Shown one piece after another: positions 10,804 through 56,894 of a DNA stretch of 64,000 bases; position 1 is the first letter of the stretch, and each line of letters opens with the position of its first letter. The stretch is from Henricia sp. BOLD:AAB3569. Taxonomy: Eukaryota > Echinodermata > Asteroidea > Spinulosida > Echinasteridae. The position numbers were made by a program, and so were the translations under genes. The notes under the pieces are model-generated. The model was not told the origin of the DNA and made no database searches. It saw only the letters and a list, made by a program, of their open reading frames with translations. Location: NCBI GenBank assembly GCA_037783545.1, contig JBBELK010000396.1, forward strand, positions 666,947 through 730,946. Direction: 5' to 3'.

Positions 10804-11048
10804 GGGTCTTTCTATAAATTAGGGGTCCAATGTTGGTGTCCCCCGTTACATTTTACATCTTGTTTTTGTAAATTCAGGACACATTCTTTAAATACTTTCC
10901 ATCTCAAAGACTGAGTACATAAAGTACAATTCATACAAAATGGTTTAAAAGCCATTTTAATGATTTTTGTACGAAAAATAACACATATCAGGTGTAACGG
11001 GGGACACCAAATGTCACACTTTTGGACCCCTAATTTATAGAAAGACCC
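10804..11048. repeat. Palindromic MITE, GGGTCTTTCTATAAATTAGG family
   Basis: 245 bp with inverted ends GGGTCTTTCTATAAATTAGG / CCTAATTTATAGAAAGACCC, flanked by ATGA on both sides (possible 4-bp target duplication). Same family as the MITE into which E1 is inserted. Confidence 0.85.
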
Positions 11049-15600: not shown

Positions 15601-18600
15601 AAAAACTCCTTTAATTGAACAGCATATTACATTGCCTATTTATTTCCATAAACACTTGATTCAATAAAAATTATACACTGTACCAGGCCTGCAAAACAGG
15701 GCTGACTACACAATTATGTATATATTTATATAATCATTATTAGGCCAAAAAAAAGGAACGATGTTTACCGGTAGCGTAAGTTGAAGCCTCCCAAAATGAC
15801 GCGGGGACGCAGTTTTCTTTGGGGGGTGGGGACGAGGGCGGGGGTAAGTGAATTCCAAGCAATAGTCAAGTTGACATGAAGCCAACAGGCATGTTTTTAA
15901 TCAAAACACTCAATTAAAATAAAAAACCTTTGACGCGCAGGGTTGAAAGTGACGCACACTAACGATATAGGTTTTTTTTTTGCGGGTTGAAAGTGACGCG
16001 CACTAATGCTAAACAAAGTTCTTTTTTTTTGCCTTTGTGACACGAACATTAATATTGATGTACTGATATACATGTACCTCTATCATCATAATGCACAGCT
16101 ACATTTTGTGGGAAAACATGTAAAACATCGTCTGTGGTGATCAGGATGTTGGAACGATCTCTGACCGCTAGACCTTGGCATGTTTTTTTCACTTCATCCA
16201 GCAGCTAAAAATGAGCAACAATTAAAATTTGTCAATTACAGATGTAATTTGGACCGCATGGACCCATGCTTTATCATCTTGAAGTGGGCGAGTAGCATAT
16301 TATGCACCTATCAATTGTTTCCCCCACCCCTCCCCTACTCGGGCTACCCCACCTAAGAGGTGGGGATTGTCACTTTTTGCGTGACAAAATCATCACCCCT
16401 GGGGCAACATTTAGGTGACCAAAATTACCACCCTCGGGTGCAAAACATGCGCGTCTTGTATACAAATGCACAGAAAATCTAAATTTAAAAGTGTTGATTG
16501 CCCCACCCAGTGGGGCATGAAAAACACCCACCTAGGGGGTGGGGCAGCGCGGGGGAGGGGAGGAGTGGGGGAAACAATTGATAGGTGCATCACAGGGTGT
16601 CCCAATATACCAAGGGCATAGGGGTCTTTCTATAAATTAGGGGTCCAAAAGTGTGACATTTGGTGTTTCCCGTTACACCTGATATGTGTTATAATTATTT
16701 TACATACAAAAATCATTAAAATGCCTTTAAACTATTTGTGTATGAATTGTACTTTATGTACTCACTCTTTTAGATGGAAAGTATTTGAAGAATTTGTCCT
16801 GAATTTAAAAGAACAAGATGTAAAATGTAACGTGGGACACCAAAATTTGACCCCTACACTCTAAAAACAGATTGGTTAAAAAAACTACCAATCTAATTGG
16901 TTGACCCCATATTGGTTGTTTCCAACCAATATATTGGTTAACTAGTGACCAATACGTTGGTTGTTCAGCAACCAATGACATTGGTTGAGTAATAAACCAA
17001 TCCTTTAACCAATACATTGGTCAATTCTGACCAATATGTTGGTTGTCCAGCAACCAATGGCATTGGTTGAGTAATAAACCAATCCTTTAACCAATACATT
17101 GGTCAATTCTGACCAATGTGTTGGTTGTCCAGCAACCAATGGCATTGGTTGATAAATAAACCAATCCTTTAACCAATACATTGGTCAATTCTGACCAATA
17201 TGTTGGTTGTCAAGCAACCAATGGCATTGGTTAAGTAATAAACCAATCCTTTAACCAATACATTGGTCAATAACGACCAATATGTTGGTTGTCCAGCAAC
17301 CAGTCACATTGGTTGAGTAATAAACCAATCCTTTAACCAATACATTGGTCAATAGTGACCAATATATGTTGGTTGTCCAGCAACCAATCACATTGGTTGA
17401 TCAATAAACCAATCCTTTAACCAATACATTGGTCAATTCTGACCAATATGTTGGTTGTCCAGCAACCAATCACAGTTGGTTGAGCAATAAACCAATCCTT
17501 TAACCAATACATTGGTCAATTGTGACCAATATGTTGGTTGTCCAACAACCAATCACATTGGTTGAGTAATAAACCAATCCTTTAACCAATACATTGGTCA
17601 ATTCTGACCAATATGTTGGTTGTCCAGCAACCAATCACATTGGTTGAGCAATAAACCAATCCTTTAACCAATACATTGGTCAATTGTGACCAATATGTTG
17701 GTTGTCCAACAACCAGTCACATTGGTTGAGTAATAAACCAATCCGTTAACCAATACATTGGTCAATAACGACCAATATGTTGGTTGTCCAGCAACCAATC
17801 ACATTGGTTGAGCAATAAACCAATCCTTTAACCAATACATTGGTCAATTGTGACCAATATGTTGGTTGTCCAACAACCAGTCACATTGGTTGAGTAATAA
17901 ACCAATCCGTTAACCAATACATTGGTCAATAACGACCAATATGTTGGTTGTCCAGCAACCAATCACATTGGTTGAGCAATAAACCAATCCTTTAACCAAT
18001 ACATTGGTCAATTGTGACCAATATGTTGGTTGTCCAGCAACCAGTCACATTGGTTGAGTAATAAACCAATCCGTTAACCAATACATTGGTCAATAACGAC
18101 CAATATGTTGGTTGTCCAGCAACCAATCACAGTTGGTTGAGCAATAAACCAATCCTTTAACCAATACATTGGTCAATTGTGACCAATATGTTGGTTGTCC
18201 AACAACCAATCACATTGGTTGAGTAATAAACCAATCCTTTAACCAATACATTGGTCAATTCTGACCAATATGTTGGTTGTCCAGCAACCAATCACATTGG
18301 TTGAGCAATAAACCAATCCTTTAACCAATACATTGGTCAATTGTGACCAATATGTTGGTTGTCCAACAACCAGTCACATTGGTTGAGTAATAAACCAATC
18401 CGTTAACCAATACATTGGTCAATAACGACCAATATGTTGGTTGTCCAGCAACCAATCACATTGGTTGAGCAATAAACCAATCCTTTAACCAATACATTGG
18501 TCAATTGTGACCAATATGTTGGTTGTCCAGCAACCAGTCACATTGGTTGAGTAATAAACCAATCCGTTAACCAATACATTGGTCAATAACGACCAATATG

Positions 18601-21600
18601 TTGGTTGTCCAGCAACCAATCACATTGGTTGAGCAATAAACCAATCCTTTAACCAATACATTGGTCAATTGTGACCAATATGTTGGTTGTCCAGCAACCA
18701 GTCACATTGGTTGAGTAATAAACCAATCCGTTAACCAATACATTGGTCAATAACGACCAATATGTTGGTTGTCCAGCAACCAATCACATTGGTTGAGCAA
18801 TAAACCAATCCTTTAACCAATACATTGGTCAATTGTGACCAATATGTTGGTTGTCCAGCAACCAATCACATTGGTTGAGTAAAAAACCAATCCGTTAACC
18901 AATACATTGGTCAATAACGACCAATATGTTGGTTGTCCAGCAACCAATCACATTGGTTGAGCAATAAACCAATCCTTTAACCAATACATTGGTCAATTGT
19001 GACCAATATGTTGGTTGTCCAGCAACCAATCACATTGGTTGAGTAAAAAACCAATCCGTTAACCAATACATTGGTCAATAACGACCAATATGTTGGTTGT
19101 CCAGCAACCAGTCACATTGGTTGAGTAATAAACCAATCCTTTAACCAATACATTGGTCAATAGTGACCAATATGTTGGTTGTCCAGCAACCAATCACATT
19201 GGTTGGGCAATAAACCAATCCTTTAACCAATACATTGGTCAATACGACCAATATGTTGGCTGTCCAGCAACCAATCAAATTGGTTGAGCGATAAATCAAT
19301 CCTTTAACCAATATATTAGTGACCAATATATTGGTTGTCCAGCAAACAATCATATTGGTTGAGCAATGATGAGCAATTTGTTTAATACATAGGCGAAATG
19401 ACGGTGACCAATTAATGTTGGTTATCCGGCAGTCAATCATTGTTTTAGTCATATTAACCATTGATTTAAACTTTTGTGATTGGTTGTAAAACAACCAGTC
19501 ACATTATTTACAATTTGTGACCAACTAGGCTAGATTCATTATCAGATATCAAGCAGCCTTTCAGCAATTAACCAATCTCCAATGGTTGACATTAGAATTG
19601 TGGCACAATCACATTGGTTCAGATATTAACCATCGTTATATTGGTAATTGGTTCACACATGAGCCAATTTTCAATTGGTTTCAACTAATACCTAATTGGT
19701 GCAGAGCTCTGTTAGGCTGATTGTCCGGTAACCAATCACATATTGGTTCAACTATCAACCAATCCTTGTTGGTTGCCTACAGTAGGACCGATTCCACTAT
19801 TTTGGGGGAGGTCACTGGTGCAAGATGATCCATTCCAAAGAGAAGTAGAACATAATTGTATATTCAAACTTTGTCATGCAATATCAAGGAATTGAAATTA
19901 TTGAAATTTCAGTCCTATTATTTTGTCAAAGATTTTAAGCATTATAGCCTTTATTTACTCATTTCTTAATGCATTTGGAATGACCCTGTATGAAAGTGGA
20001 ATTACCATGAGCCACGAGGAGCGCTTCATGCTGTGGTCAGCATTTTTACTGCATGCAGTAGTTTCAAACGGTCAAACACTAGTCAAACTATTACCTTCGA
20101 TCCTCTACAATCCGCTGCTTTCTTGCATCCGTTGTCAGTTTCCTCTGCTTTTCACCCGCTTTTCAGGTAGGACATATGTTTACATTTTATTTTGTATCAA
20201 CTTGGACAAAAGTAGTTATTGTATAAATTATCTGTGTATCTTCCGAATAGTGTGGTCTAAAATTCACCGTTTTGTAGAGGTTTTGAAATGAGAGCACGAA
20301 ACCGATAGAATAATGGGAGAAGCTTTTTGTATATTCATCCCACATAAATGAATATTTGAGAAAGATAAGCGATGTTAAGTTGTAATTTAGTGAGTTTTTA
20401 CTTTGAGGACAGTTCTGACTTTTTCAAAGTTGCATGGCATTTACAAAGTACATGTAAAAACATTATAATTATATATGGGACGTCCATACAGTACGCACTT
20501 TGTATATTCATCCATGGTATATGCATGGGTATGTACAGTGGTCAGTGCAATCCCCCTCCAAGGACGGCCACCATGTGCATGCTGTGTGGAGGCTCATGAC
20601 CAGTTCTTGGCATGGGGTCCTGGTTAGCCTTGAATTTTATAGCAGTGCAAACTGCAGTATTTGTGTATCAACTTCCACAGTAATGTCATGAGACAGTTTA
20701 CACTATATGCCTGTGAAGCAATCTTCCCTGCATATTTTAACGTGTTTTTGTTGTTGTTCATTTCATAATTATTGCGTATCTCAGATTGACGTGGACTTCG
20801 ATCTCTTTTCGGGGAACAGGCTGACACTCGAGGTACATGTAGCCTCCATGATGTAGCAGATAATGGACTTCCATGAGCTAGACTGCTGTAATGACACAGC
20901 TGTGCGTCTTGTAGCAGATTTGAATAAACAACATGGAACAGAATGATGATGCAGAAGAGGATATGGATGCCGACTACTCCCTATTCCCAGGTTAGTTTTG
21001 CTCTCTTTATTAAGCTTACTCTTTTTGCACAGTATTTTTTAAAACATGACAGAGGTGGTTCGATTTTTAAAAATAATGTTGACATTCACCGTGCACCTTA
21101 GGTAGGTGACCATCCTAGCGCCAGTGGATTCATAAGAATTGGTCAGAGTTGACATTACACAGAAAAGACTGATTTAGAAGCCCAGGTTGTATGTTTTATA
21201 TTAAACTGGAACTTCTCAGGAGAGGGGTCTCTCGAGAGGTACTACAGCAGTGCACTTGCCAGACATTGCTTTAAGGAAATTCGCCATTTATTTTGGTGTG
21301 ACCAATATCTAGTGATATGTTATTAATGCACTCCTATTTATTATTCCTTGATTGCTTCTTTGCAGAGGACATTATACTACATGTGTAACACAAAGAACAG
21401 AGTCTACCTCGAAGGAAAAAAAGGTGGAAGCTAGCCAAGCATAGTGGAAAAACGGAGAACCTTCATTGCACTGAAGGTAATTGGTACCATTGAAGATACT
21501 TTGGTTTTTGAGGTTTTGGAAACAAAATGTATGCGACATGTTAAATGCCGCCAGTTAGCATAGACAGGGTTGGCAGTCACACACATCAATCTGCATGGAA

Positions 21601-24600
21601 AACTTGCGGTAGGATACTGTATCTGATAGTCCAGATGTAAGGAAAAGAGGACCCAATTATAGCAGTTAATATGCTTTGCAAGTTTGTGATATTTTACATT
21701 GTGTGAGCCTGCTGACTGAAAACTTTAATACACCTATGTCAACAGTTTAACAATTTCGAGTTTCATATTTGCTAACATATATGAACCTTGCTTTTCAGCG
21801 TGGAGCCGACTTTGCTGGCTATATCCAGGTGAGGGACGAGGAATGCAGAAATCGGGAAGTGACTAGGCAGCTACAGGTCCTCATTCTTAGGAAACACAAT
21901 GCTGGATGCCAAGGAATTGTTTGTTTGTATTAAACAGTCAGGTTATCTATAAAGTGAATTATCTTGTGAAGGCAAGAAAAGCCATCATCATGTTTGCCTA
22001 TTACTATTTCTTAAGGAACAATAACGTAATCAGGATACAACAAATTAATATAAAAAAACAAAGTGACGCAATAACGTTTGTTTACAAACACAGCTAGCGC
22101 CAATCAAATATGCATGTAACAGCAGTGACGCTCCAGACGCTTGCGTCTTTTAAAAAATTGTAATATTAAATTAAATGTCCACTCCATGCATGCAGTACAG
22201 AGATAAATAATAATAATCTTTTCAACTCTGCAGCTGTACTGTATAGTATGTGAATCCATGCTCGGTGTCCATTTTAAATGTATATGCAGCGACATTCTTT
22301 AAAATAAAACATGTACAGGATGAACCCCAGCAATTATGTTGGTCTATATTAAATCATGTTGTTCTGTAAACAAATTAAACCAAACCACTTGCCTGGCAAC
22401 TTTAACCAATAATATTGGTCATTTCAGCCATTACAATTGGTTAATGTTGACAATTTTTTGGTCTTTTAAAGCAATATATTTGGTTATCTTTAACAAATAT
22501 ATTGGTTGTCTTGACCAATATGAAATGGTTAGTATTCTAACCAATATGTATTGGCTGGGAATTTAACCAATCAAGATTGGTTATGGATTGGTTAAAACGT
22601 TAACCGATCTAGATTGGTTAAATAAACAACTAAGATATGTTGGTTAATATTTTAACCGATATGGATTGGTTAAATAAACAACCAAGACATGTTGGTCAAT
22701 ATTCCAACCAATATGGATTGGTCAACTAAACAACCAAGACATGTTGGTTAGTATTCTAACCAATATGGATTGGTTAAATAAACAACCAAGACATGTTGGT
22801 TAATATTCCAACCAATATGGATTGGTCAACTAAACAACCAAGACATGTTGGTTAGTATTCTAACCAATATGGATTGGTTAAATAAACAACCAAGACATGT
22901 TGGTTAATATTCCAACCAATATGGATTGGTTAAATAAACAACTAAACAACCAAGACATGTTGGTTAGTACTCTAACCAATATGGATTGGTTAAATAAACA
23001 ACCAAGACATGTTGGTTAATATTCTAACCAATATGGATTGGTTAAATAAACAACCAAGACATGTTGGTTAATATTTCAACCAATATGGATTGGTCAACTA
23101 AACAACCAAGACTTGTTGGTTAGTATTCTAACCAATATGGATTGGTTAAATATACAACCAAGGGATGTTGGTTAATATCGTAACCAATATGGATTGGTCA
23201 ACTAAACAACCAAGACATGTTGGTTAGTATTCTAACCGATATGGATTGGTCAAATAAACAACCAAGAGATGTTGGTTAGTATTCTAACCAATATGGATTG
23301 GTTGAAAAAGTAAACCATATCAGATTGGTTATTTTAACCAATAGATTGGTTGGACACATATCTACCAACCACATTGGTTGAATTTGACCAATATATTGGT
23401 TAATTCAACCAATCTGTTTTTAGAGTGCTAAAAACAGATTGGTTAAAAAAACTACCAATCTAATTGGTTGACCCCATATTGGTTGTTTCCAACCAATATA
23501 TTGGTTAACTAGTGACCAATACGTTGGTTGTTCAGCAACCAATGACATTGGTTGAGTAATAAACCAATCCTTTAACCAATACATTGGTCAATTCTGACCA
23601 ATATGTTGGTTGTCCAGCAACCAATGGCATTGGTTGAGTAATAAACCAATCCTTTAACCAATACATTGGTCAATTCTGACCAATGTGTTGGTTGTCCAGC
23701 AACCAATGGCATTGGTTGATAAATAAACCAATCCTTTAACCAATACATTGGTCAATTCTGACCAATATGTTGGTTGTCAAGCAACCAATGGCATTGGTTA
23801 AGTAATAAACCAATCCTTTAACCAATACATTGGTCAATAACGACCAATATGTTGGTTGTCCAGCAACCAGTCACATTGGTTGAGTAATAAACCAATCCTT
23901 TAACCAATACATTGGTCAATAGTGACCAATATATGTTGGTTGTCCAGCAACCAATCACATTGGTTGATCAATAAACCAATCCTTTAACCAATACATTGGT
24001 CAATTCTGACCAATATGTTGGTTGTCCAGCAACCAATCACAGTTGGTTGAGCAATAAACCAATCCTTTAACCAATACATTGGTCAATTGTGACCAATATG
24101 TTGGTTGTCCAACAACCAATCACATTGGTTGAGTAATAAACCAATCCTTTAACCAATACATTGGTCAATTCTGACCAATATGTTGGTTGTCCAGCAACCA
24201 ATCACATTGGTTGAGCAATAAACCAATCCTTTAACCAATACATTGGTCAATTGTGACCAATATGTTGGTTGTCCAACAACCAGTCACATTGGTTGAGTAA
24301 TAAACCAATCCGTTAACCAATACATTGGTCAATAACGACCAATATGTTGGTTGTCCAGCAACCAATCACATTGGTTGAGCAATAAACCAATCCTTTAACC
24401 AATACATTGGTCAATTGTGACCAATATGTTGGTTGTCCAGCAACCAGTCACATTGGTTGAGTAATAAACCAATCCGTTAACCAATACATTGGTCAATAAC
24501 GACCAATATGTTGGTTGTCCAGCAACCAATCACATTGGTTGAGCAATAAACCAATCCTTTAACCAATACATTGGTCAATTGTGACCAATATGTTGGTTGT

Positions 24601-27600
24601 CCAGCAACCAGTCACATTGGTTGAGTAATAAACCAATCCGTTAACCAATACATTGGTCAATAACGACCAATATGTTGGTTGTCCAGCAACCAATCACATT
24701 GGTTGAGCAATAAACCAATCCTTTAACCAATACATTGGTCAATTGTGACCAATATGTTGGTTGTCCAGCAACCAATCACATTGGTTGAGTAAAAAACCAA
24801 TCCGTTAACCAATACATTGGTCAATAACGACCAATATGTTGGTTGTCCAGCAACCAATCACATTGGTTGAGCAATAAACCAATCCTTTAACCAATACATT
24901 GGTCAATTGTGACCAATATGTTGGTTGTCCAGCAACCAATCACATTGGTTGAGTAAAAAACCAATCCGTTAACCAATACATTGGTCAATAACGACCAATA
25001 TGTTGGTTGTCCAGCAACCAGTCACATTGGTTGAGTAATAAACCAATCCTTTAACCAATACATTGGTCAATAGTGACCAATATGTTGGTTGTCCAGCAAC
25101 CAATCACATTGGTTGGGCAATAAACCAATCCTTTAACCAATACATTGGTCAATACGACCAATATGTTGGCTGTCCAGCAACCAATCAAATTGGTTGAGCG
25201 ATAAATCAATCCTTTAACCAATATATTAGTGACCAATATATTGGTTGTCCAGCAAACAATCATATTGGTTGAGCAATGATGAGCAATTTGTTTAATACAT
25301 AGGCGAAATGACGGTGACCAATTAATGTTGGTTATCCGGCAGTCAATCATTGTTTTAGTCATATTAACCATTGATTTAAACTTTTGTGATTGGTTGTAAA
25401 ACAACCAGTCACATTATTTACAATTTGTGACCAACTAGGCTAGATTCATTATCAGATATCAAGCAGCCTTTCAGCAATTAACCAATCTCCAATGGTTGAC
25501 ATTAGAATTGTGGCACAATCACATTGGTTCAGATATTAACCATCGTTATATTGGTAATTGGTTCACACATGAGCCAATTTTCAATTGGTTTCAACTAATA
25601 CCTAATTGGTGCAGAGCTCTGTTAGGCTGATTGTCCGGTAACCAATCACATATTGGTTCAACTATCAACCAATCCTTGTTGGTTGCCTACAGTAGGACCG
25701 ATTCCACTATTTTGGGGGAGGTCACTGGTGCAAGATGATCCATTCCAAAGAGAAGTAGAACATAATTGTATATTCAAACTTTGTCATGCAATATCAAGGA
25801 ATTGAAATTATTGAAATTTCAGTCCTATTATTTTGTCAAAGATTTTAAGCATTATAGCCTTTATTTACTCATTTCTTAATGCATTTGGAATGACCCTGTA
25901 TGAAAGTGGAATTACCATGAGCCACGAGGAGCGCTTCATGCTGTGGTCAGCATTTTTACTGCATGCAGTAGTTTCAAACGGTCAAACACTAGTCAAACTA
26001 TTACCTTCGATCCTCTACAATCCGCTGCTTTCTTGCATCCGTTGTCAGTTTCCTCTGCTTTTCACCCGCTTTTCAGGTAGGACATATGTTTACATTTTAT
26101 TTTGTATCAACTTGGACAAAAGTAGTTATTGTATAAATTATCTGTGTATCTTCCGAATAGTGTGGTCTAAAATTCACCGTTTTGTAGAGGTTTTGAAATG
26201 AGAGCACGAAACCGATAGAATAATGGGAGAAGCTTTTTGTATATTCATCCCACATAAATGAATATTTGAGAAAGATAAGCGATGTTAAGTTGTAATTTAG
26301 TGAGTTTTTACTTTGAGGACAGTTCTGACTTTTTCAAAGTTGCATGGCATTTACAAAGTACATGTAAAAACATTATAATTATATATGGGACGTCCATACA
26401 GTACGCACTTTGTATATTCATCCATGGTATATGCATGGGTATGTACAGTGGTCAGTGCAATCCCCCTCCAAGGACGGCCACCATGTGCATGCTGTGTGGA
26501 GGCTCATGACCAGTTCTTGGCATGGGGTCCTGGTTAGCCTTGAATTTTATAGCAGTGCAAACTGCAGTATTTGTGTATCAACTTCCACAGTAATGTCATG
26601 AGACAGTTTACACTATATGCCTGTGAAGCAATCTTCCCTGCATATTTTAACGTGTTTTTGTTGTTGTTCATTTCATAATTATTGCGTATCTCAGATTGAC
26701 GTGGACTTCGATCTCTTTTCGGGGAACAGGCTGACACTCGAGGTACATGTAGCCTCCATGATGTAGCAGATAATGGACTTCCATGAGCTAGACTGCTGTA
26801 ATGACACAGCTGTGCGTCTTGTAGCAGATTTGAATAAACAACATGGAACAGAATGATGATGCAGAAGAGGATATGGATGCCGACTACTCCCTATTCCCAG
26901 GTTAGTTTTGCTCTCTTTATTAAGCTTACTCTTTTTGCACAGTATTTTTTAAAACATGACAGAGGTGGTTCGATTTTTAAAAATAATGTTGACATTCACC
27001 GTGCACCTTAGGTAGGTGACCATCCTAGCGCCAGTGGATTCATAAGAATTGGTCAGAGTTGACATTACACAGAAAAGACTGATTTAGAAGCCCAGGTTGT
27101 ATGTTTTATATTAAACTGGAACTTCTCAGGAGAGGGGTCTCTCGAGAGGTACTACAGCAGTGCACTTGCCAGACATTGCTTTAAGGAAATTCGCCATTTA
27201 TTTTGGTGTGACCAATATCTAGTGATATGTTATTAATGCACTCCTATTTATTATTCCTTGATTGCTTCTTTGCAGAGGACATTATACTACATGTGTAACA
27301 CAAAGAACAGAGTCTACCTCGAAGGAAAAAAAGGTGGAAGCTAGCCAAGCATAGTGGAAAAACGGAGAACCTTCATTGCACTGAAGGTAATTGGTACCAT
27401 TGAAGATACTTTGGTTTTTGAGGTTTTGGAAACAAAATGTATGCGACATGTTAAATGCCGCCAGTTAGCATAGACAGGGTTGGCAGTCACACACATCAAT
27501 CTGCATGGAAAACTTGCGGTAGGATACTGTATCTGATAGTCCAGATGTAAGGAAAAGAGGACCCAATTATAGCAGTTAATATGCTTTGCAAGTTTGTGAT

Positions 27601-30600
27601 ATTTTACATTGTGTGAGCCTGCTGACTGAAAACTTTAATACACCTATGTCAACAGTTTAACAATTTCGAGTTTCATATTTGCTAACATATATGAACCTTG
27701 CTTTTCAGCGTGGAGCCGACTTTGCTGGCTATATCCAGGTGAGGGACGAGGAATGCAGAAATCGGGAAGTGACTAGGCAGCTACAGGTCCTCATTCTTAG
27801 GAAACACAATGCTGGATGCCAAGGAATTGTTTGTTTGTATTAAACAGTCAGGTTATCTATAAAGTGAATTATCTTGTGAAGGCAAGAAAAGCCATCATCA
27901 TGTTTGCCTATTACTATTTCTTAAGGAACAATAACGTAATCAGGATACAACAAATTAATATAAAAAGACAAAGTGACGCAATAACGTTTGTTTACAAACA
28001 CAGCTAGCGCCAATCAAATATGCATGTAACAGCAGTGACGCTCCAGACGCTTGCGTCTTTTAAAAAATTGTAATATTAAATTAAATGTCCACTCCATGCA
28101 TGCAGTACAGAGATAAATAATAATAATCTTTTCAACTCTGCAGCTGTACTGTATAGTATGTGAATCCATGCTCGGTGTCCATTTTAAATGTATATGCAGC
28201 GACATTCTTTAAAATAAAACATGTACAGGATGAACCCCAGCAATTATGTTGGTCTATATTAAATCATGTTGTTCTGTAAACAAATTAAACCAAACCACTT
28301 GCCTGGCAACTTTAACCAATAATATTGGTCATTTCAGCCATTACAATTGGTTAATGTTGACAATTTGTTGGTCTTTTAAAGCAATATATTTGGTTATCTT
28401 TAACAAATATATTGGTTGTCTTGACCAATATGAAATGGTTAGTATTCTAACCAATATGTATTGGCTGGGAATTTAACCAATCAAGATTGGTTATGGATTG
28501 GTTAAAACGTTAACCGATCTAGATTGGTTAAATAAACAACTAAGATATGTTGGTTAATATTTTAACCGATATGGATTGGTTAAATAAACAACCAAGACAT
28601 GTTGGTCAATATTCCAACCAATATGGATTGGTCAACTAAACAACCAAGACATGTTGGTTAGTATTCTAACCAATATGGATTGGTTAAATAAACAACCAAG
28701 ACATGTTGGTTAATATTCCAACCAATATGGATTGGTCAACTAAACAACCAAGACATGTTGGTTAGTATTCTAACCAATATGGATTGGTTAAATAAACAAC
28801 CAAGACATGTTGGTTAATATTCCAACCAATATGGATTGGTTAAATAAACAACTAAACAACCAAGACATGTTGGTTAGTACTCTAACCAATATGGATTGGT
28901 TAAATAAACAACCAAGACATGTTGGTTAATATTCTAACCAATATGGATTGGTTAAATAAACAACCAAGACATGTTGGTTAATATTTCAACCAATATGGAT
29001 TGGTCAACTAAACAACCAAGACTTGTTGGTTAGTATTCTAACCAATATGGATTGGTTAAATATACAACCAAGGGATGTTGGTTAATATCGTAACCAATAT
29101 GGATTGGTCAACTAAACAACCAAGACATGTTGGTTAGTATTCTAACCGATATGGATTGGTCAAATAAACAACCAAGAGATGTTGGTTAGTATTCTAACCA
29201 ATATGGATTGGTTGAAAAAGTAAACCATATCAGATTGGTTATTTTAACCAATAGATTGGTTGGACACATATCTACCAACCACATTGGTTGAATTTGACCA
29301 ATATATTGGTTAATTCAACCAATCTGTTTTTAGAGTGTAGTTTATAGAAATACCCATAATGTATCTAAAGAAAATAATTGGTAAACCAACATGCAGAAAT
29401 TTAAAATAAATAGATGCACATTTATGTGTTAGAAAACCTTGGTTTTTGTGTCAAGTGAATGGCAGTGTTGTAGTCGAGTCACCAATATCGAGTCCGAGTC
29501 CGAGTCTTGAGTCACTTGTTCGCCAAAATGAAACACAGTTTCGTGCACACAATGTGTGAAATGAAAAGTGGGGCAGTGTAAACGTACATATTAACGCGTC
29601 GTACTGTGTTTTCCCCCAAGAATCCTGTATTAAGGGCGCAAATTTCTGTTTTCTTTTCCTTTTTTTAAATATGCGACTCGTGAGTGTTCTCCACTGCCGG
29701 TTTTGCCGGGCATGCCACCATGGCCACCTGGACAGAATCATCACAGGTACCGTTAAGCGCCCGGACAAAAATTTGCCGCCCAGACAAAAAACTGGGCCGC
29801 CCGGACAAAATTAATAAATGTTCCCCTCTAAAAAACTGTGAAAGTACAGCCAAGTCATTCTAAAATTAGGTGTAAATTCACCATACATGTACGTGATTCG
29901 CTAGCCACTATCGTTCACTTACATGTACCACGCAAATCTATCGTTTCAGCGCCGATAACGACCATGACAGTTGCATGCATTTGTTTTGAACAGCACCCTC
30001 AAGTGTTGAATGTGTTCACATCTTGAGGGAGCTGCACGCCCGGACAAAATCTGTACCAGTGGAGAACAGACTAGCGAGTCACGAGTCACCATGTTCGAGT
30101 CCGAGTCATCATGGTCGAGTCGGAGTCATCATGGTCGAGTCCGAGTCCAAATCATTTTCCAATATGACTTGAGTCGAGTTAGCCTTTTGACAAGGCCTCG
30201 TGAATTTGGGCGATTTGGTGACTTGAGTAGAGTCTACACACGTCGAGTGTCTCATTCATTTGGCCTTTTCCGAACTGCGAGGCAATTCTTATGTTTTTCT
30301 TTATAACCGCTACCGAATTCAGTAGCAGAAATCAGCCAGTCACGTGCAGGTCACCCTATGCAAATTACGTCGTGAGCTCCTACAAACAAGGGAGGTAGGC
30401 TTACGCTTTTGAATTCACGGGGCAAATTAAACAGCAAAGTAATGAAATCAAATAAATTATATTCGTTCCGTATAAAACTTGGATGTAATAAACAATTTGT
30501 CAAATTTCAACGCATTTACATGGAGTTCAATTGGGTATTTTTGAAGTAAGTGTAAATGCCGTACCTAATGTACATTGATAATGAACCAGTCCACAACGCC

Positions 30601-35762: not shown

Positions 35763-52060
<16,298 letters not shown>

Positions 52061-55737: not shown

Positions 55738-55982
55738 ATTAGAAATAAAATGGTCGCAATTATACAAAACAACCCAAATTATAATTTTCAGTTGGGTTAA
55801 CTCTAAAAGAATTAAACACGTAAGGGGAAACTGAAGAAAAAGAAATCACATTCCAAACGACCACTACACTGGTTTTAAATAATAGTGACATTTAAGTAAG
55901 GTTGTTTTTGCCCTTACTCGACGTATTTATTAACACTGTATACCCAGTGCTTTCCCGAGACACTATGAAAAACTTCATAGCG

Positions 55983-56054
55983 TGCTCGGGTGGGACTCGA
56001 ACCCACGACCTCCTGCATACAAGGCAGACGTCTTAACCACTCGACCACCGAGCT
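55983..56054 (-). tRNA. tRNA-like sequence, anticodon region TGT, inverted copy
   Basis: 72 nt, same sequence as the two plus-strand copies. See the copy at 56277-56348 for structure. Confidence 0.4.
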
Positions 56055-56276
56055 AGCCGGTGTTGAATGGCCGGTTCGAATCCCACCCGAGCACGCTATG
56101 AAGTTTTTCATAGTGTCTCGGGAAAGCACTGAGTATACAGTGTTAATAAATACGTCGGGTAAGGGCAAAAACAACCTTACTTAACATTCAATTTCCCCGA
56201 CGCAAGTCTAAATCAAATTCTGACTAATTGCAATCCCCGTTGCGAAATGATTCGAACCGGCCATTCAACACCGGCT

Positions 56277-56348
56277 AGCTCGGTGGTCGAGTGGTTAAGA
56301 CGTCTGCCTTGTATGCAGGAGGTCGTGGGTTCGAGTCCCACCCGAGCA
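56277..56348 (+). tRNA. tRNA-like sequence (Thr-TGT-like), probably SINE head
   Basis: Folds by eye: acceptor AGCTCGG/CCGAGCA (six pairs, first pair A-A mismatched), D stem GTC/GAC, anticodon stem TCTGC/GCAGG with loop CTTGTAT (anticodon TGT, Thr), T arm GTGGG TTCGAGT CCCAC. A box TGGTCGAGTGG and B box GGTTCGAGTCC are intact. The mismatched first pair and the repeat context suggest a tRNA-derived element more than a working tRNA gene. Confidence 0.5.
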
Positions 56349-56531
56349 CGCTATGAAGTTTTTCATAGTGTCTCGGGAAAGTACTGAGTATACAGTGTTA
56401 ATAAATACGTCGGGTAAGGGCAAAAACAACCTTACTTAACATTCAATTTCCCCGACGCAAGTCTAAATCAAATTCTGACTAATTGCAATCCCCGTTGCGA
56501 AATGATTCGAACCGGCCATTCAACACCGGCT

Positions 56532-56603
56532 AGCTCGGTGGTCGAGTGGTTAAGACGTCTGCCTTGTATGCAGGAGGTCGTGGGTTCGAGTCCCACCCGA
56601 GCA
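56532..56603 (+). tRNA. tRNA-like sequence, third copy
   Basis: Identical to the copy at 56277-56348, 255 bp downstream, followed by the same hairpin GCTATGAAGTTTTTCATAG. Confidence 0.45.
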
Positions 56604-56894
56604 CGCTATGAAGTTTTTCATAGTGTCTCGGGGAAAGCACTGAGTATACAGTGTTAAAGGCAGTATACATCATTGGTAATTCGAAAATCAGAAATGTTCA
56701 CAGATTTACGCCTAACTTACACAATATAAACATGATGACCGTAGAAAACTTCCCCTGAAATGATTTTGTCTAAAGTGCTATAGTCTTTGAGAAATGAGCA
56801 AAAGAAATAGTTTTGGTCTCATGAGACGAAAATTCGTTTTTTTTAAACATTTCGTTCAATGCTGCCCTCACACGACCGATTGTCAGGATGTAAC

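Follow-up and report, generated by a model that had tools for sequence, protein, structure and literature searches.

How two copies of one transposon, here called E1, came to abut head to tail at a single insertion site is the question raised by positions 16857-29337 of the window, a stretch of 64,000 nucleotides from Henricia sp. BOLD:AAB3569 (contig JBBELK010000396.1 of assembly GCA_037783545.1, forward strand). Our analysis points to a real, recent and so far single TIR-TIR joint, which is most likely an end-joined by-product of transposition. The pair and its parts are laid out as follows.

16857..23427, plus strand: E1 copy 1, 6571 bp, with 21-bp TIRs complete at both ends
23428..29337, plus strand: E1 copy 2, 5910 bp, left TIR without its initial CACT, right TIR complete
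16924..19367, plus strand: 82-bp tandem array of copy 1, 29.8 units
23491..25277, plus strand: 82-bp tandem array of copy 2, 21.8 units
22601..23303, plus strand: 52-bp tandem array of copy 1, 13.4 units
28511..29213, plus strand: 52-bp tandem array of copy 2, 13.4 units
23407..23444, plus strand: TIR-TIR joint, 17-bp inverted arms around AGTG (23424-23427), break at 23427/23428

The full 21-bp TIR, CACTCTAAAAACAGATTGGTT, was present at the left end of copy 1 and at both right ends, and in each copy the 82-bp array lay near the left end and the 52-bp array near the right end. Copy 1 contained 93 ATTGGT and 133 ACCAAT motifs; elsewhere in the window, a stretch of equal length had approximately 3 of each. 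The copies differed in length by a single 657-bp block of the 82-bp array, missing in copy 2, whose start in copy 1 can be placed anywhere in 17441-17873. Besides this block and the CACT, only 2 substitutions were found in 5910 bp; an alternative alignment with four gaps in the arrays led to 3 mismatches, and the alignment with one 657-bp block was adopted. At the joint itself the sequence reads AACCAATCTGTTTTTAGAGTG|CTAAAAACAGATTGGTT; one break coincides exactly with the right tip of an E1, and the second lies four bases inward of a left tip. The two sides of the break had no bases in common (end side, TTTTAGAGTG|TAGTTTATAG; start side, CCCCTACACT|CTAAAAACAG), and the target duplication expected between adjacent double insertions was absent at 23427/23428.

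The pair interrupts a short host repeat, of which an uninterrupted relative occurs elsewhere in the window.

16622..16856, plus strand: left part of the host repeat, with TIR GGGTCTTTCTATAAATTAGGGG; its final TA (16855-16856) is the left target duplication
29338..29355, plus strand: right-hand target duplication (TA, 29338-29339), then the rest of the host repeat
10804..11048, minus strand: relative of the host repeat without insertion, serving as the empty site

The empty relative reads GACCCC-TA-ATTTATAG, while the filled site reads GACCCCTA-[pair]-TAGTTTATAG; this empty site is a paralogue rather than an allele and differs in one base beside the TA. The empty repeat has a single TA whereas the filled site has one on each side of the pair, and therefore the pair shares one 2-bp target duplication. 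The initial annotation had described two almost identical copies, a second TIR lacking CACT, a joint with neither host DNA nor TA, and one TA per outer side. These descriptions agree with what was read directly from the sequence, in which the right tip of copy 1 was also found to be complete.

We then compared the pair with other E1 copies in the assembly, whose 2104 contigs total 740,731,340 bases. With a 160-bp query spanning the joint, 404 candidates were returned, 40 of which were scored. The right end was present in all 40, including 38 outside the window, and among these 40 only the window locus matched the query over its whole length. Twenty of the 38 outside loci were studied further. 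Both ends were visible in 18 of them, which were complete single insertions of 4276-6650 bp, with one (L014) accepted by hand despite a variant left TIR; of the remaining two, L011 was cut by a contig end and L022 had no left end in its 8.5-kb stretch. L022 was also considered as a longer E1 copy, and no frame of at least 110 aa was found in it. All 18 complete copies were flanked by matching 2-bp duplications, 16 of them TA. The two TG duplications (L009 and L010) indicate that the target is not strictly TA. In the 6650-bp copy, L017, approximately 2.2 kb separate two E1 matches, probably a nested insertion. The length of the 82-bp array (16857-19367 and 23428-25277 in the pair) varied strongly among copies.

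Because none of the six E1 frames scanned gave a Pfam family at E ≤ 0.01, E1 looks non-autonomous. The same six frames contained neither a Tc1/mariner DDE transposase at this threshold nor a transposase with the C(2)C and H(3-4)H motifs of EnSpm-like elements. As described in the sections consulted, EnSpm-like (CMCT) elements, including the fungal ESTA with TA duplications, have 5'-CA..TG-3' termini and duplications of 2-5 bp (PMC12730594); E1 likewise has CACT...AGTG termini and 2-bp duplications in 18 of 18 copies. These termini and the non-strict 2-bp duplication tentatively favour an EnSpm-like (CMCT) assignment. Tc1/mariner elements duplicate TA; with TA in 16 of the 18 copies and TG in 2, a strict Tc1/mariner assignment was not adopted.

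Further joints were sought with the pattern CTGTTTTTAG-N(0-30)-CTAAAAACAG, which by means of exact 10-mers catches joints that are perfect or trimmed on one or the other side, as well as E1-TA-E1 doubles, so that inexact joints would escape. It matched once in the assembly, at this joint; no other E1 joint, and no intact E1-TA-E1 junction, was recovered with exact 10-mers. Taken with the query across the joint, this speaks against a chance resemblance. The joint and end patterns had 0 matches in viral contigs. Occurrences of the TIR string in the literature were set aside as chance occurrences in unrelated work, judging by titles and abstracts. The joint pattern read backwards, used as a control, had 1595 matches on each strand, all of them to another sequence and not to E1; these hint that a further inverted repeat, with ends GACAAAAATC...GATTTTTGTC, is abundant.

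A tree of the 3.1-kb middle was inferred for copies 1 and 2 and 17 other copies (L011, L017 and L022 were omitted). Copies 1 and 2 grouped as sisters (support 1.000). They differed at 2 of 3091 sites, and in each case the derived base seems to lie in copy 2, the other copies having A in 17/17 at one site and T in 16/17, with G in one, at the other. The nearest of the 17 others, L025, was 0.69-0.75% from the pair, and the median pair differed by 2.09%; the next closest pair overall, L018-L027, was a separate pair of dispersed copies at 0.26%. The private branch common to copies 1 and 2 had a length of 0.006, and 0.0007 followed their split. Furthermore, the distance from the left end to the middle was 2534 bp in copy 1 and 1877 bp in copy 2, versus 622-1594 bp in 18 other copies. 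The comparison shows that the pair stems from one E1 lineage, and the recent origin proposed earlier is borne out. The tree ruled out two unrelated family members inserted side by side (2/3091 versus at least 0.69% to the 17 others). To this extent the earlier claim that the pair does not reflect two independent insertions holds; it does not extend to local hopping of near-identical copies followed by a 6-bp deletion.

We lean, somewhat beyond an even balance, towards an origin by end joining of transposase-cut E1 ends, an intact 3' tip having met a 5' end recessed by four bases. E1 would be a non-autonomous cut-and-paste DNA transposon with a 2-bp target duplication, usually TA, and two ends of one E1 lineage would have been cut by a transposase supplied in trans. 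Cleavage of the transferred strand would fall precisely at the tip (...TTTTTAGAGTG-3'), that of the opposite strand four bases further in (5'-CTAAAA...), and 4-nt 3' overhangs would remain. Instead of entering a new target, the cut ends may have been sealed by end repair: if a right end contributed its 3' tip and a different left end its recessed 5' end, and the second overhang was trimmed away, exactly the observed joint would result. Three routes can be envisaged: single-end cuts on two sister chromatids might be joined in place, an excised circle bearing the joint might recombine into a resident E1, or an excised dimer might insert via its intact outer ends. We slightly prefer the in-place route. 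The tree fits duplication of one E1 lineage, and would accommodate an in-place event and insertion of a preformed dimer alike. The initial annotation had proposed a tandem joint arising from a circle-like or replicative intermediate or by recombination. Its tandem-joint part is consistent with the empty joint and the one outer duplication, while in-place duplication fits as well as a circle, a replicative intermediate or insertion as a unit.

Three observations speak for end joining: the geometry of the breaks, exactly at a right tip and four bases inside a left tip, with no common bases; a pair with one TA duplication where 18 of 18 single copies each have their own 2-bp duplication; and sister copies whose left arrays are longer than those of 18 other copies. 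According to the portions consulted of one article (PMC7827188), Sleeping Beauty and mariner show comparable chemistry, with nicks three bases within the element and 3' overhangs left behind, and extrachromosomal circles arise from a Sleeping Beauty variant deficient in integration. The 4-nt offset proposed for E1 is deduced from this single joint. Among excision-footprint-like strings, the window contained one TAAGTGTA at 30547, too short to mean anything, and none of two longer or inverted forms. On the other side, more joints would be expected if end joining were common, and none was found with exact 10-mers; close copies need not adjoin, as L018-L027 at 0.26% illustrate; and one tip is not necessarily preserved when 3' overhangs are joined, so that the exact form of the joint could be luck.

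The main rival is a double insertion, in which a near-identical E1 hopped locally into a TA beside the resident copy to give E1-TA-E1, and TACACT (6 bp) was then lost. The intermediate junction would be a 44-bp perfect palindrome (21-bp TIR, TA, 21-bp TIR), from which bases near the centre could be lost by repair; palindrome centres are deletion-prone, which counts in favour of this scenario. The copies would need only to be recent relatives, as L018 and L027 are. According to the source portions consulted, cut-and-paste transposons are known to hop locally (PMC7827188), and P elements can form adjacent doubles that carry a target duplication at their junction (PMC9659126). Nevertheless, a double insertion requires two events, the deletion must have ended exactly at the tip of copy 1, and the exact 10-mer pattern revealed no intact E1-TA-E1 junction; we consider it rather unlikely.

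Replication slippage or template switching could also have duplicated a resident E1 in tandem, independently of any transposase. The copies represent one lineage and E1 arrays are unstable in length, as such a duplication would have it, but both breaks would then have fallen at, or no more than four bases from, the element tips, with no common bases at the break and no flanking DNA carried along, and this makes it distinctly improbable. The locus was judged from the assembly alone and E1 copies are long and repetitive, so we also weighed an artefact in which only one E1 is truly present. We give this little credence: a duplicated allele would carry flanking DNA too, a misjoin has no reason to hit TIR tips, and the 657-bp block and the 2 substitutions tell the copies apart.

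The closest precedent for the E1 pair is provided by the Bari1 arrays. In the printed junction between Bari1 monomers, TTTGACCACCTCTGGTCATGGTCAAAATTAT (PMC8834629), CTG may be taken as a full right tip, after which comes a left end without CA. In the sections consulted, Bari1 clusters of Drosophila melanogaster, namely h39 and a small X-linked cluster, are described as head-to-tail copies each lacking the first two bases; a circular transposon intermediate was proposed, and the authors considered the array an enigma without comparable examples (PMC8834629). Bari1 and E1 are therefore alike in being TIR transposons with a head-to-tail joint free of host DNA and a downstream copy without its first few bases, two in Bari1 and four in E1. 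They differ in copy number (approximately 80 and 6 versus 2), so that E1 does not share the many-copy array; in addition, Bari1 is Tc1-like, heterochromatic and encodes its own transposase, whereas E1 had none in the six frames scanned. Bari1 excision data were considered as a test of an offset rule and set aside, the source having detected no excision in the part consulted (PMC3828361).

Other systems resemble the pair less closely, as far as the consulted parts of their sources describe them. P-element adjacent doubles are likewise two tandem copies of one DNA transposon, but their junction is of target-duplication size (PMC9659126), unlike the E1 joint, which has no duplication between copies. 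In sister-chromatid and reversed-ends alternative transposition of maize Ac/Ds, ends on sister chromatids are used together and duplications result (PMC3744419); there the freed ends enter a new target, whereas in E1 the two ends would have been joined to each other.

The E1 joint is of moderate interest alone, and of greater interest if the missing bases report a cut offset. It is conceivable, although we regard it as doubtful, that head-to-tail joints of eukaryotic cut-and-paste transposons are generally end-joined transposase products whose missing bases (four in E1, two in Bari1) record the offset of the second-strand cut. If so, such joints would be fossils that reveal the cutting geometry of uncharacterised transposases, and this one would predict, testably, the behaviour of a transposase that nobody has purified. 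They would also mark the point at which a transposon begins to become a tandem array. The E1 joint, which unites two copies of an element of another kind than Bari1, has lost four bases and is dated as recent, would be the simplest such beginning for a Bari1-like array.

Several other features were observed in the window. At 55982-56604, repeated units contain three tRNA-Thr (TGT) genes that score identically, two of them on the plus strand and the third on the minus strand; they are possibly part of a SINE-like or tandem repeat. A Tc1-like transposase fragment was found on the minus strand at 47172-47639 (Pfam HTH_Tnp_Tc3_2, E 1.9e-16). Frames at 51414-52060 gave a cupin-like match (Cupin_8, E 1.2e-09), and we presume that they are probably exons of a host JmjC/TYW5-like gene.
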